Part shown: positions 6,607 to 29,556 of the stretch, in pieces
How the letters are laid out: each line of letters starts with the position of its first letter
Position numbering within the stretch: position 1 is the first letter of the stretch
Assembly (NCBI RefSeq): GCF_014652655.1
Contig: NZ_BMZF01000001.1
Location: 1-64,000, forward strand
Source of the DNA: Paramylibacter ulvae
GTDB taxonomy: Bacteria > Pseudomonadota > Alphaproteobacteria > Rhodobacterales > Rhodobacteraceae
DNA length: 64,000 bases
Direction: 5' to 3'
Program-made: the position numbers and the translations under genes
The notes under the pieces: generated by a model
Seen by the model: only the letters and a program-made list of their open reading frames with translations
The model's database searches: none
Told to the model about the DNA's origin: nothing

Positions 6607-6644
6607 TTGTACATATTGTATCCAAGTGTATACAATATGTACAA
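6607..6644. promoter_or_regulatory. Paired-arm operator inside the tricarboxylate cluster
   Basis: A perfect inverted repeat with 15-bp arms (TTGTACATATTGTAT and its reverse complement, 6607-6621 and 6630-6644) around an 8-bp spacer. Each arm is itself an imperfect TACA-N3-TGTA palindrome, as expected of two adjacent sites for a GntR- or LacI-like dimer. It lies 38 bp upstream of the hydroxyacid dehydrogenase ATG. There is no T tract after it, so it is unlikely to be a terminator. The matching regulator is not evident in the window. Confidence 0.65.
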
Positions 6645-19648: not shown

Positions 19649-20686
19649 TTAGGCGACGTTACCAACGCGAATAACGCGTTTGCCGAAGGCTTCACCGTTG
19701 AGCAATCCGATAAATGCCTCTGGGGCGTTTTCCAACCCGTCGATGATTTCTTCTCGGTATTTGATTTTTCCTTCTTTGATCCAACCAATCATTTGTGCGG
19801 CAAATTCTGGGTACAGATGACCAAAATCGTCAAAGATAATAAAACCGCGCATTGTAATGCGACGCGTCAACAATTGCCCCATCAACATTCCCATCCGATC
19901 AGGGCCATCGGGTAGGGATGTGGCGTTATATTGCGAAATCAAACCACACAACGGAATACGCGCACCCGTGTTTAACAACGGCATCACCGCATCAAACACT
20001 TTGCCACCGACGTTTTCGAAATAAATGTCGATCCCATCGGGGGTGGCCGCGGCTAGATCACCGTTCAACGTATCGGTTTTGTAATCTACACAGGCATCAA
20101 AACCCAGTTCATCAACGGCATAAGCACATTTTTCTGCGCCCCCCGCAATGCCAACCACACGACAGCCAAGGATTTTGGCAATCTGCCCAACGGTTGCACC
20201 AACAGGGCCCGTTGCGCCGCCGACCACCACGGTTTCACCCGCCTTTGGCATCCCAATTTGGGTCAAACCCGCCCAGGCGGTGAATCCCGGCATGCCCAAC
20301 ACACCCAGCGCCCATGACGGGTTTTGGGGTGTTGTGCCCAATGAATTGACCATCGTACCATCCGATATCGCATAATCCTGCCAGCCGCTGAACGATACGA
20401 CATATTCGCCTTTGCTGAATTTTGGATTGTTGGACGCGATCACCTCTGCCACCGTACCACCAACCATCACATCGCCAATTTCTACCGGATCAGCATAAGA
20501 TTTCGCCGCGCTCATGCGCCCACGCATGTAAGGGTCGAGCGACAAGAATTGCGTGCGCAGCAACATTTCACCATTCTGTGGTGTTGGAATATCGGCAGTT
20601 TCCATGCGCAATGTGTTTTCGTTTGGCTCACCGTTGGGCCGTTCGGCCAAGACAAGACGGCGGTTGGTTTTTGATGTTTGTGGCAT
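19649..20686 (-). CDS. NADP-dependent oxidoreductase, MDR superfamily (CurA/YncB-like)
   Basis: Medium-chain reductase of 345 aa of the zinc-independent leukotriene B4 dehydrogenase/CurA group, which reduces enones with NADPH. Seen: SLDPYMRGRM near the N-terminus, the nucleotide motif GATGPVGATVGQIAKILG with GIAGGAEK, and DIYFENVGGKVFDAV. ATG 20686 is chosen over 20719 because GAGGG lies upstream. It has its own promoter region and no clear operon partner. Confidence 0.88.
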   Translation of the reverse strand: MPQTSKTNRRLVLAERPNGEPNENTLRMETADIPTPQNGEMLLRTQFLSLDPYMRGRMSAAKSYADPVEIGDVMVGGTVAEVIASNNPKFSKGEYVVSFSGWQDYAISDGTMVNSLGTTPQNPSWALGVLGMPGFTAWAGLTQIGMPKAGETVVVGGATGPVGATVGQIAKILGCRVVGIAGGAEKCAYAVDELGFDACVDYKTDTLNGDLAAATPDGIDIYFENVGGKVFDAVMPLLNTGARIPLCGLISQYNATSLPDGPDRMGMLMGQLLTRRITMRGFIIFDDFGHLYPEFAAQMIGWIKEGKIKYREEIIDGLENAPEAFIGLLNGEAFGKRVIRVGNVA

Positions 20687-20796
20687 GTATTTCCCTCTGG
20701 GGTTCGAGTTTGTTAGCATTGCTTACTTTGAAGGTATGCAAGTCACAACACCAAGGTGAATGTATCACAGAGTGTTGAAGTTAATTTTCGATTGGA

Positions 20797-20827
20797 CAAA
20801 AAAAGAGGCCGAGCAAAAGCTCGGCCT
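20797..20827 (-). terminator. Rho-independent terminator of candidate sRNA
   Basis: Perfect 9-bp stem AGGCCGAGC/GCTCGGCCT with an AAAA loop (20806-20827). On the minus strand it is followed by CTTTTTTT. It is a strong minus-strand terminator about 180 nt after the LysR stop codon. Confidence 0.9.
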
Positions 20828-20883
20828 AAGTCCAACAGGGAGGTGAAGATAACAGGAGCACGAAGCTCTACTGTCGTCTTCAT
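20798..20883 (-). ncRNA. Candidate small regulatory RNA downstream of LysR gene
   Basis: About 86 nt. Read on the minus strand: a 5' stem-loop (GAAGA/TCTTC, ACAG/CTGT and GAGC/GCTC pairings around a TTCGT loop, roughly 20844-20880), an unpaired linker containing CACCTCCCTG, and the terminator stem. The CCUCCC linker is complementary to Shine-Dalgarno sequences, as in several alphaproteobacterial trans-acting sRNAs. A TATAGT -10-like box lies at 20891-20896. It could alternatively be processed from the 3' UTR of the LysR mRNA. Confidence 0.6.
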
Positions 20884-20924
20884 GAATGAAACTATAAGTT
20901 AGAAGGGTTAATAACAACTTCCGA

Positions 20925-20947
20925 AACTGCATAACCGTTATGCAGTT
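20925..20947. promoter_or_regulatory. LysR-type operator-like palindrome upstream of the sRNA
   Basis: Perfect palindrome with 11-bp arms (AACTGCATAAC, one central base, GTTATGCAGTT) containing a T-N11-A core. Its centre is about 53 bp upstream of the predicted sRNA start, the normal activator position for LysR regulators. The half-site GTTATGC also occurs at 21981-21987 in front of the LysR gene. Confidence 0.6.
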
Positions 20948-21008
20948 CATTCATAACTTGGTCATTATTTGTGCAACGCATTGATAATGCGGGTTAATTG
21001 TTACGCAA

Positions 21009-21920
21009 TTACATCACATTTTCGCGTTGATCAACGGCGCGGCGGTACGCTTTTATCTCTTCTACGACGAAATCACGGAATGCATTGACGCGTTTTGAAT
21101 GGCGAAGTTCCTCTGGATAGGCCAAAAATACGGGGATTTCTTTGCTCTCGTCATTGGGCAAAACGCGCACCAATTCGGGCACCAAGGATGAGACATAATC
21201 GGGCATGACTCCGATTCCAACATCATGCATTGTGGCCTGCATCACGCCGAAATAATTATTCACGGTCATATGTTTGATATGCTGTTCATCGGCCAAAACG
21301 GTTTTCAACCATGACACGCTTTCGTTCACTTGGCGTGCGGTCAAACTTTGGCTGATAATGCGGTGGCTTTGCAAATCCTCCACCGTTTCGGGGGTGCCGT
21401 GTTTATCCAAATAGGGTTGGCTGGCATAAAGCTGCATATTCACCGTCATGATGCGTCGGCGCACCAGATCGGCCTGTGATGGCTCTTTCATACGAATGGC
21501 AACATCGGCCTCGCGCATGGGTAAATCCAAAACGCGCTCTTCAAGGATCAGATCGATTTTCAGCTCTGGGTATAATTCGTATAATCGTCCCATACGCGGC
21601 GCGAGCCAAAGCGTGCCAAAACCCGTCGTCGTGGTCACGCGCAATTCACCAAACACCTCATCTTCGCTATCGCGAATGCGTGCCTCTGCTGTTTCCAGCT
21701 TTTTGGACATGTCTTGGGTTGCGGTAAATAACAATTCGCCTTGTTCCGTTAGGATAAGCCCACGCGCATGTCGGTGGAACAGGATCACGTTAAGGCTTTC
21801 TTCGAGCGATCGAATTTGGCGGCTGACAGCGGATTGCGACAGGTGCAATTTGTCACCCGCATGGGTCAAACTGCCAATATCGGCCACTGCATGAAAAATG
21901 CGTAACTTGTCCCAATCCAT
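21009..21920 (-). CDS. LysR-family transcriptional regulator adjacent to candidate sRNA
   Basis: Regulator of 303 aa. N-terminal winged HTH (MDWDKLRIFHAVADIGSLTH, then HLSQSAVSRQIRSLEESL, residues 1-60) and an effector domain (about 90-290) with VTTTTGFGTLWLAPRMGRLY. The RBS GGGAGG precedes the ATG. The next element downstream on the same strand is a palindrome followed by a candidate sRNA. The sequence matches my recollection of a LysR group well conserved in Rhodobacteraceae. Target genes unknown. Confidence 0.9.
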   Translation of the reverse strand: MDWDKLRIFHAVADIGSLTHAGDKLHLSQSAVSRQIRSLEESLNVILFHRHARGLILTEQGELLFTATQDMSKKLETAEARIRDSEDEVFGELRVTTTTGFGTLWLAPRMGRLYELYPELKIDLILEERVLDLPMREADVAIRMKEPSQADLVRRRIMTVNMQLYASQPYLDKHGTPETVEDLQSHRIISQSLTARQVNESVSWLKTVLADEQHIKHMTVNNYFGVMQATMHDVGIGVMPDYVSSLVPELVRVLPNDESKEIPVFLAYPEELRHSKRVNAFRDFVVEEIKAYRRAVDQRENVM

Positions 21921-22026
21921 GTGGGAACCTCCCTGAGAAGCTATGTTGGCTGCACAGTTCTGCTATGCATTTTTTGCAAAGTTATGCGAATTTTCAAAGC
22001 GTGGAAAGTACGAAAGTGACGCAAAG

Positions 22027-22254
22027 TTAACTTTTGCGCAGAAAATAGACCTGCGGATCGCTATCGGTGTCGGATGCGACCAATTGATGGCCTTGTTCAG
22101 TGCAAAAATGGGGCACATCAATGATGGCAGCAGGGTCATCGGCCAACATGCGCAACACTTGTCCTGAATCCAATGCCATCAACCGTTTGCGCGCACGCAA
22201 TACGGGCAGGGGGCACAACAGGCCCGTCGCATCAAGTTCAGCATCATAATCCAT
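22027..22254 (-). CDS. TusA-family sulfurtransferase
   Basis: SirA/TusA-like protein of 75 aa carrying persulfide sulfur. The N-terminal motif LDATGLLCPLPVLRARKRLMAL contains the catalytic Cys in the CPxP motif; the remainder forms the two-layer fold (VLRMLADDPAAIIDVPHFCTEQGHQLV). It has its own start 104 bp before the divergent hydrolase-like gene. A role in tRNA thiolation or general sulfur relay is expected. Confidence 0.88.
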   Translation of the reverse strand: MDYDAELDATGLLCPLPVLRARKRLMALDSGQVLRMLADDPAAIIDVPHFCTEQGHQLVASDTDSDPQVYFLRKS

Positions 22255-29060: not shown

Positions 29061-29152
29061 AAGTGGAGGTTTCTGTTGCCCACGATTTTTGCCGACAGGC
29101 AAAATATCGGAATGCTGCAATCGCTGGGAGTTAAGTGGAGGTTTCTGTTGCC
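29061..29152. repeat. 20-bp direct repeat duplicating the tmRNA 3' end
   Basis: The 20-mer starting AAGTGGAGGT is present exactly at 29061-29080 and 29133-29152. The second copy is the 3' end of the tmRNA coding piece (minus strand, including its final ACCTCC stem arm). The other copy lies 72 bp downstream of it. Between them is an inverted repeat TTTTGCC-GACA-GGCAAAA (about 29086-29103). Confidence 0.8.
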
Positions 29153-29450
29153 AGGTACCTCCGAACCCCGCTTAGGCCAGCAGGCCCAAGGCTAAGTTTT
29201 CCAATATTTGGAACTGCTTACGCAGCTACAGCCATCGGTGCTTTGTTGTCATTTGCAACTAGCTTAAGTGGGTCGATAACAGCGACACCGCACCGGGCAA
29301 AAGCAAACATCTTTAGACGTCCGTCGATCCTATTTCGACCCCATGCCAACCGTCAAATGAACGATATGTTTGGTGGAGTCGCCGGGTACCGCCCCCGGGT
29401 CCGATCCGCTTATTACATGCGCGTTTATTACCATAGTCCCCGAAGGAACA
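29130..29450 (-). ncRNA. ssrA: Two-piece (permuted) transfer-messenger RNA
   Basis: Alphaproteobacterial circularly permuted tmRNA. Read on the minus strand, the acceptor piece comes first (about 29450-29371) with a T-arm-like GGACCCGGGGGCGG...CCCGG region and an end ...CGACTCCACCA. After a short spacer the coding piece begins at 29342 with GGGGTCG. These two ends pair as a 7-bp acceptor stem with a G-U at the third pair, the alanine identity element. The tag frame follows, then hairpins CTTAG/CTAAG and GGAGGT/ACCTCC close the piece near 29135. Exact processing ends are estimated. Confidence 0.93.
29218..29256 (-). other. tmRNA proteolysis-tag reading frame
   Basis: Resume codon GCA, then codons for ANDNKAPMAVAA and stop TAA. 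The ANDN start and the hydrophobic AVAA end are the alphaproteobacterial tag type recognised by SspB and ClpXP. Confidence 0.92.
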
Positions 29451-29556
29451 TTATGAATATACGCCCAATTAGTGTGGATTTAAAGGGGTGATCACAGCCC
29501 ATTGATACAAATTCCTCTAACACCCGCAGAAAATTCAAAAAACACCACCAATTTGG

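Follow-up and report, generated by a model that had tools for sequence, protein, structure and literature searches.

A candidate regulatory unit of an LsrB/VtlR-type LysR regulator and a SorY-type small RNA in Rhodobacteraceae

What is encoded by the short intergenic stretch behind a LysR-type regulator gene in a Rhodobacteraceae genome, and does the regulator act on it? In the 64,000-nucleotide stretch of DNA analysed here (the window), the minus strand carries, in this order, a TusA-like gene, the LysR gene, an intergenic palindrome with promoter-like boxes and an RNA-like segment. An earlier note on this DNA read the arrangement as a compact unit, in which the regulator would control a small RNA (sRNA) that represses translation by pairing with ribosome-binding sites. 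We propose, with a probability of about four in five, that an alphaproteobacterial LsrB/VtlR-sRNA module is present here in its Rhodobacteraceae version, in which a LysR-activated SorY-type RNA represses uptake mRNAs. The regulator clade, the gene order and an LsrB-like site point to a unit of LsrB-type regulator and sRNA, the RNA being SorY-like and not AbcR. Much of the unit has known relatives, because it joins a SorY gene to a regulator of LsrB/VtlR type. For the window itself we infer binding, activation, RNA production and targets from data on relatives and from comparison. The parts of the locus are as follows.

22027..22254, minus strand: TusA-like sulfurtransferase gene (Pfam TusA, 8.5e-21), 5' neighbour of LysR, given as context only
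21981..21987, minus strand: half-site GCATAAC in the LysR promoter, the GTTATGC of the earlier note (from sequence)
21962..21968, minus strand: half-site GCATAGC in the LysR promoter (from sequence)
21928..21935, minus strand: LysR ribosome-binding site CAGGGAGG, one of five CAGGGAGG-N3-11-ATG matches in its own genome
21009..21920, minus strand: LysR-type regulator of 303 aa, LsrB/VtlR clade, without cysteine (Pfam HTH_1 and LysR_substrate; 9HH1; tree)
20952..20957, minus strand: operator half-site 1, GTTATG, in a symmetric T-N11-A pair with half-site 2
20925..20947, minus strand: perfect palindrome made of half-sites 2 and 3 (sequence; LsrB-type consensus of PMC8844928)
20943-20929, minus strand: LsrB-type operator GCATAACGGTTATGC inside the palindrome (match to the consensus of PMC8844928)
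20912..20917, minus strand: weak -35-like TTGTTA, 15-nt spacer to the -10 (from sequence)
20891..20896, minus strand: -10-like TATAGT (from sequence)
20798..20881, minus strand: SorY-type small RNA of about 84 nt (Rfam, covariance models, fold)
20845..20881, minus strand: 5' hairpin of the sRNA (fold; seen in 20/20 single folds)
20836..20843, minus strand: anti-Shine-Dalgarno (anti-SD) core CCTCCCTG (invariant in 20/20 rows)
20798..20827, minus strand: intrinsic terminator with T run (fold, alignment)

The RNA segment and its kinship with SorY

The segment had been described as a stem-loop, a linker and a strong terminator behind a TATAGT box, and all of these parts are found. The box lies at 20896-20891 and the linker CACCTCCCTG at 20845-20836, and the segment folds at -37.0 kcal/mol, a value that none of 200 shuffles reached (-18.6 +/- 2.8; z -6.5); most of the linker stays unpaired in the predicted fold. 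Several relatives have CTTGT(T/C)G near the place of the -35-like box. Three Rfam families match the window RNA below their thresholds, namely SorY (RF02651; 53.7 bits, E 4.6e-10, gathering cut-off 111), SorX (RF02784; 38.3 bits, gathering 46.6) and suhB/MmgR (RF00519; 37.9 bits, gathering 41), and ar15 (RF02345) gave no match on 20600-21100 at E up to 5. At gathering, tmRNA models are the only Rfam matches in the window; positions 29134-29488 hold an alphaproteobacterial permuted two-piece tmRNA gene (287 bits).

Relatives of the RNA were found by DNA search in 31 of 60 other genomes (27/32 in the genus, 3/4 in the family and 1/24 in the wider class). LysR stands 5' of the RNA on the same strand in 18 of 20 loci including the window, with 68-100% identity; the two exceptions are a contig end (L006) and a stretch without LysR (L008). 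All 20 loci have the core TCACCTCCCTGTT unchanged, as well as most of the terminator stem. A covariance search across relatives had been suggested as a check, and the model built from these loci (R1) detects the RNA in 235 of the family's 248 genomes, many of which carry 2-4 copies in all; LysR, searched for separately at E 1e-40, is present in 242 of the 248. Linkage was counted in the 97 genomes present among the best 150 or so matches of both searches. Among the matches listed, the RNA lies 3' of LysR on the same strand in 95 of the 97, with a median gap of 118 nt and with 92 of the 95 linked genomes within 310 nt; the two exceptions among these matches are a contig end (G271) and a listed copy elsewhere (G090). 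Direct reading of the best 30 R1 loci found LysR in 27, the others being L085, L087 and L088. In one of 31 loci read (G033, L076 1318-1396), a tandem second RNA copy follows the first, as in abcR1-abcR2.

According to the earlier note, the lack of a discrete RNA and of any conserved stem or linker in related genomes would leave only a LysR 3' UTR. Such a reading, with the segment as an untranslated LysR tail that ends in a strong terminator, could appeal to RNAalifold, which in the genus alignment gives the terminator as the only well-conserved helix, plus a small inner pair that is kept. MAFFT columns slip at the 5' hairpin, for which single folds were therefore used, and there the hairpin forms in 20/20. 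Together with an invariant linker and an RNA that occurs in 235/248 genomes, often in more than one copy, and behind LysR in 95 of the 97 listed, this makes a plain 3' UTR scarcely credible.

Among the stretches compared, an oxidoreductase gene as the next gene after the RNA is common only to the window and its nearest relative. In L006, L036, L050 and L096 the next long frame past the RNA or operator is what we take to be a purL-like gene; unlike these four loci, the window has the oxidoreductase gene between the RNA and the position of the purL-like gene.

The R1 match of genome G107 starts at 1,632,643, and the published 5' end of SorY in R. sphaeroides, an RNA with its own promoter, is 1,632,642 (PMC6238624). 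The G107 locus (L096) scores 115 bits with Rfam SorY, over the cut-off of 111, and its LysR ortholog, 71% identical to that of the window, ends at 1,632,461, directly upstream on the same strand. From the SorY position, the Rfam score and the place of LysR, G107 is therefore R. sphaeroides or very near to it. Judged by position and sequence, the window RNA is an ortholog of SorY. The ortholog group, drawn wider than the Rfam cut-off, comprises RNAs that lie at the same locus behind an orthologous LysR and share a homologous core, and both traits are found in the window; L098 (62.1 bits) and L099 (52.8), with the same LysR in front, are likewise under the SorY cut-off. SorY has the same LysR upstream, the same CCTCCCTGTTGGACTT linker and a near-identical terminator, but the window RNA has another 5' hairpin sequence and 2 nt fewer before CCTCCC, and the promoter boxes and operator spacing differ, the operator-like site of the SorY locus lying about 9 bp further upstream by manual count.

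Two other groups of RNAs are built alike. SorX has the same linker and a similar terminator; it is cut from the 3' UTR of an OmpR-family mRNA, whereas the window gene has a promoter-like region (PMC6238624 for SorX). MmgR/alpha-r8 RNAs, including SisA-D of Caulobacter, share with the window RNA a 5' hairpin, an anti-SD core of about 10 nt with CCUCCCU and a terminator, but differ in the bases after CCUCCCU. Anti-SD repression by SisA has been shown by others, and sisA adjoins an N-formylglutamate amidohydrolase gene (PMC12559287).

The example of SorX raises the question whether the window RNA could be cut from the 3' part of the LysR mRNA. LysR and the RNA do share a strand across a short gap (median 118 nt among the matches listed), and SorX, an RNA of the same type, derives from a 3' UTR (PMC6238624). 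SorY, however, is a discrete RNA with its own promoter, and its main 5' end coincides with the start site (PMC6238624). The RNA start is also closely preceded by promoter-like boxes and the operator-like site, which makes processing very unlikely.

A candidate three-part operator and the predicted regulation

The palindrome of the earlier note is present 3' of LysR: AACTGCATAAC-G-GTTATGCAGTT, at 20947-20925, is a perfect inverted repeat of 11 bp, its arms flanking a single central nucleotide. The window has three distinct inverted repeats of arms >=11 and loops <=10, this one included, and the length of the palindrome alone is not decisive, because five Markov copies of the window give 0-2 comparable repeats each. 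Another of the inverted repeats in the window, at 6607-6644 (15-bp arms, 8-nt loop, TTGTACATATTGTAT...ATACAATATGTACAA), looks like the operator of another regulator. The T-N11-A core attributed to the palindrome needs correction: a T-N11-A exists inside it, but is off-centre there and so not a symmetric core. The symmetric pair is formed by the outer GTTATG (20957-20952) with CATAAC (20942-20937), and since this outer GTTATG had not been listed before, there are three half-sites in all.

In S. meliloti, LsrB binds the abcR1 promoter and activates abcR1, at a site GCAT-N3-TG-N3-T located from -61 to -49 (PMC8844928). The window sequence GCATAACGGTTAT, at 20943-20931, is one base off this consensus (G for T); with 20881 taken as the RNA start, it would span about -62 to -50. 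For counting, we allowed up to two mismatches to the wider consensus GCATRNCNGNNATGC between LysR and the RNA, and took dinucleotide shuffles as expectation. Operator-like sites occur in 17/18 genus loci (0.5 expected), 25/25 family loci (2.1), 38/87 loci of other families (6.5) and 78/80 rhizobial loci (9.3), enrichments that are not blind, since the consensus was written after viewing genus, rhizobial and part of the other loci. The pattern corresponding to the symmetric T-N11-A pair, [CT]ATG[CA]-N7-[GT]CAT, is present in 46/87 class loci and 31/80 rhizobial loci, as raw counts outside the shuffle comparison. The earlier picture of a regulator-plus-sRNA unit thus gains on both sides, the order being kept in 95 of the 97 genomes listed and a palindrome-like site in 17/18 genus and 25/25 family loci.

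The exact pattern CATRNCGGNTATGC was read manually 5' of the RNA in 14 of 33 genus genomes. It has three sites in the window's own genome, compared with roughly 0.75 expected as estimated from pattern length. A second copy of the operator pattern (L022 1501-1514, G000:C3:26238) precedes what is presumably an amino-acid ABC binding-protein gene; the site numbers are close to chance. A wider palindrome regulon was rejected, the three genome sites being near chance and the genus loci read holding no second site at such an ABC gene.

In the unit as proposed, the LsrB-type LysR would bind the three half-sites at 20957-20929, the palindromic part having its centre about 55 bp upstream of where the RNA begins, and would activate transcription of the SorY-type RNA from about 20881. 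An alternative is that the SorY-like RNA is under a heat-shock-type sigma factor alone, with LysR a mere neighbour and the palindrome serving another regulator. SorY is indeed listed among the sRNAs controlled by alternative sigma factors, namely RpoE, RpoHI and RpoHII (PMC8307010), and its promoter region, CTTGAA-N16-CCTAAAT, resembles the RpoH1 consensus quoted for abcR2 (PMC8844928). Yet 25/25 family loci preserve the site along with gene order and spacing, and so do rhizobia, where action of LsrB on such a site has been shown (PMC8844928). Moreover, abcR1 and abcR2 exemplify the coexistence of LsrB and RpoH1 inputs in one system. We therefore consider control by a sigma factor alone unlikely. 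A tie between SorY and a LysR protein was not found in the titles and abstract openings of the open-licence literature searched, nor in the available parts of PMC6238624, PMC8307010, PMC7074977, PMC7866481 and PMC11089165.

A possible action of LysR at its own promoter presents a weaker case than at the sRNA promoter. The recurrence of GTTATGC reported for the LysR promoter is real (21981-21987), but weak on its own, because GTTATGC and GCATAAC combined occur 8 times in the 64 kb of the window. Half-sites in the LysR promoter are found in 8/18 genus loci against 0.6 expected and in only 3/25 family loci against 0.9.

In the proposed unit, the RNA has a terminator of its own and would end there, at 20798. 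Through the open linker CACCUCCCUGUU it would pair with ribosome-binding sites such as CAGGGAGG and repress translation, mainly of mRNAs for solute uptake (ABC and TRAP transporters). A transporter mRNA is a reported target of SorY (PMC6238624, PMC8307010), and AbcR1/2 are reported to use anti-SD motifs to repress mRNAs of ABC transporters (PMC8844928). The linker is best complemented by CAGGGAGG-N3-11-ATG, which has five matches in the genome: one precedes LysR, and the others a TRAP binding protein of DctP type, an ABC binding protein (SBP_bac_1), a small protein of the membrane and DctQ; besides LysR, three of the other four thus lie 5' of DctP, SBP_bac_1 and DctQ genes. The nearest relative keeps the site at the ABC protein and at LysR. 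Because some relatives have many such motifs (G107 has 44), the motif is a weak target filter, which names no targets alone; repression of uptake mRNAs via their ribosome-binding sites is nevertheless the likely prediction.

In the window species the RNA may also damp its own regulator. By duplex energies, the CAGGGAGG of LysR and the next T form a 9-nt complement to the sRNA linker. The duplex of sRNA and LysR mRNA ranks in the top 0.0-1.3% of 40-nt windows in L001-L004 and at 3.3% in L010, and the exact self-pairing site is found, among 18 loci, only in the window and L002. In the other 13 of the 18 loci the rank is 6-50%, and LysR-mRNA feedback was accordingly rejected as a conserved feature. 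Pairing with the regulator's mRNA is possible at species level, as the duplex model suggests, and not widely conserved.

The regulator and the RNAs behind it across the class

The best solved relative of the window LysR is 9HH1 (E 1e-84; the next 4.8e-28), which is LsrB of A. tumefaciens (PMC11975290). A class-wide LysR search at E 1e-30 gave matches in 114 of 190 genomes, and 87 loci outside the family were used (E up to 2.1e-72; 27 from the search, 60 by place), five more rows in this E range being omitted as near contig ends or with stops. In a tree of 65 rows, rooted at its midpoint and with weak support for 25 of its 62 inner branches, one clade (96/92) unites family, class and rhizobial rows with 9HH1, and six distant LysRs fall outside. 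By its sequence, the window LysR groups with A. tumefaciens LsrB against other LysRs. Nine divergent rows from genomes of <=2 Mb had been labelled paralogs; the label is partly wrong, as eight fall inside the LsrB clade and one at its edge.

The upstream gene and the cysteines set the window apart from rhizobial loci. A TrxB motif (CA[TV]CDG in the translated frame, and not a domain search) was found 5' of the regulator in 75/87 other-family and 79/80 rhizobial loci, and trxB upstream of lsrB/vtlR has been reported (PMC7486931, PMC11975290). Directly upstream, where trxB would be expected at an LsrB/VtlR locus, the window has TusA instead. Both redox cysteines of rhizobial LsrB, C144 and C273, are present in 80/80 rhizobial rows, one peptide used to find these rows containing the second, and in 0/18 genus, 0/27 family and 0/87 other rows. 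Unlike rhizobial LsrB, the window LysR lacks any cysteine, and its input signal would not be the rhizobial thiol pair. LsrB was called unique to Rhizobiales in a 2025 paper (PMC11975290). Against this view, the tree, the shared neighbours and the shared operator indicate a regulator spread over much of the class.

In rhizobia the lsrB/vtlR gene is followed by the sRNA AbcR1 (PMC8844928). With the LsrB/VtlR-AbcR1/AbcR2 systems of Rhizobiaceae and relatives, the window shares the regulator clade, the downstream same-strand slot for an RNA, the kind of operator near -60 and an anti-SD motif. The RNA itself differs: ar15 gave 14 matches in the slot behind LysR in the 8 loci tested of 80 rhizobial ones, and the window RNA, without an ar15 match at 20600-21100, is not AbcR.

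How far the RNA of the window extends beyond its family was assessed in the 87 loci chosen by LysR alone. In 55 of them an RNA core and terminator lie behind LysR on the same strand, 51 with high score by our own scoring; the typical core is ACGTCTCCCAGACGTGAAGCCTCCCTGTTCAACTT. After dropping L113, L114, L170 and L177, the remaining 47 of the 51 were aligned. CCTCCCTGT is invariant in this alignment, CCTCCC having been required and TGT favoured when the loci were chosen. Of its cells 87.8% pair, against at most 46.0% in slid versions, and two-sided changes occur in 55 cells, where shuffles give 12.8; the class-wide RNA structure is not a product of locus choice. The covariance model from these 47 loci (R2) contains no row of the window's family. 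It nevertheless scores the window RNA at 35.7 bits, the next match in the window having 12.0, and in the window's own genome this RNA is the sole match at E 0.01 (E 7.6e-8). At E 1e-9 or better, the R2 matches listed come from 72 genomes of the class, 66 of them with a listed LysR ortholog; among these, the RNA lies 3' of LysR, same strand and no more than 10 kb away, in 59 of the 66, and within 600 nt in 54, counts that lean to linkage because R2 was trained on linked copies.

On the 80 rhizobial loci R2 gives only weak matches (18.4 bits at most), mostly to the terminator part. R2 does not detect AbcR, and one sequence family for SorY and AbcR was rejected; deep kinship of the two stays possible, since ar15 and suhB share one Rfam clan. 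Many other families have a longer RNA form with core ACGUCUCCCAGACGUGAAGCCUCCCUGUUCAACU, in which, as seen in L100-L126, a hairpin ACGTCTCCCAGACGT precedes the linker. In Rfam no family of its own was found for this form in the 27 loci L100-L126, and partial matches, to SorX, suhB or SorY, occur in 11 of the 27 at E up to 0.01, all under gathering. The 32 of 87 other-family loci without an RNA core beside LysR yielded an RNA to Rfam in one only, L174, which is SorX-like.

It seems to us probable, at a lower confidence than we attach to the window unit, that an LsrB-type regulator, a conserved operator and an anti-SD sRNA form an ancestral alphaproteobacterial module, which has retained its regulator and operator while the RNA has diverged into at least three forms, and whose thiol switch is a late rhizobial trait. 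The forms would be SorY in Rhodobacteraceae, AbcR in rhizobia and the apparently unnamed longer form in many other families. If true, this would unite research on SorY, SorX and AbcR, one apparent system having been studied in two fields, photo-oxidative stress of Rhodobacter (SorY) and root or host colonisation by rhizobia (LsrB/VtlR-AbcR). It predicts LysR control of SorY, which gains a candidate transcriptional regulator, and opens many alphaproteobacteria to tests of whether anti-SD RNAs control uptake genes. It also raises the question of what LsrB responds to in lineages that lack the cysteines.

Rhizobial-type LsrB was also met in two records titled Bacillus subtilis SK6B4 (L282, 70% identity) and Arenimonas MAG (L239, 93%), which are probably mislabelled or mixed assemblies.
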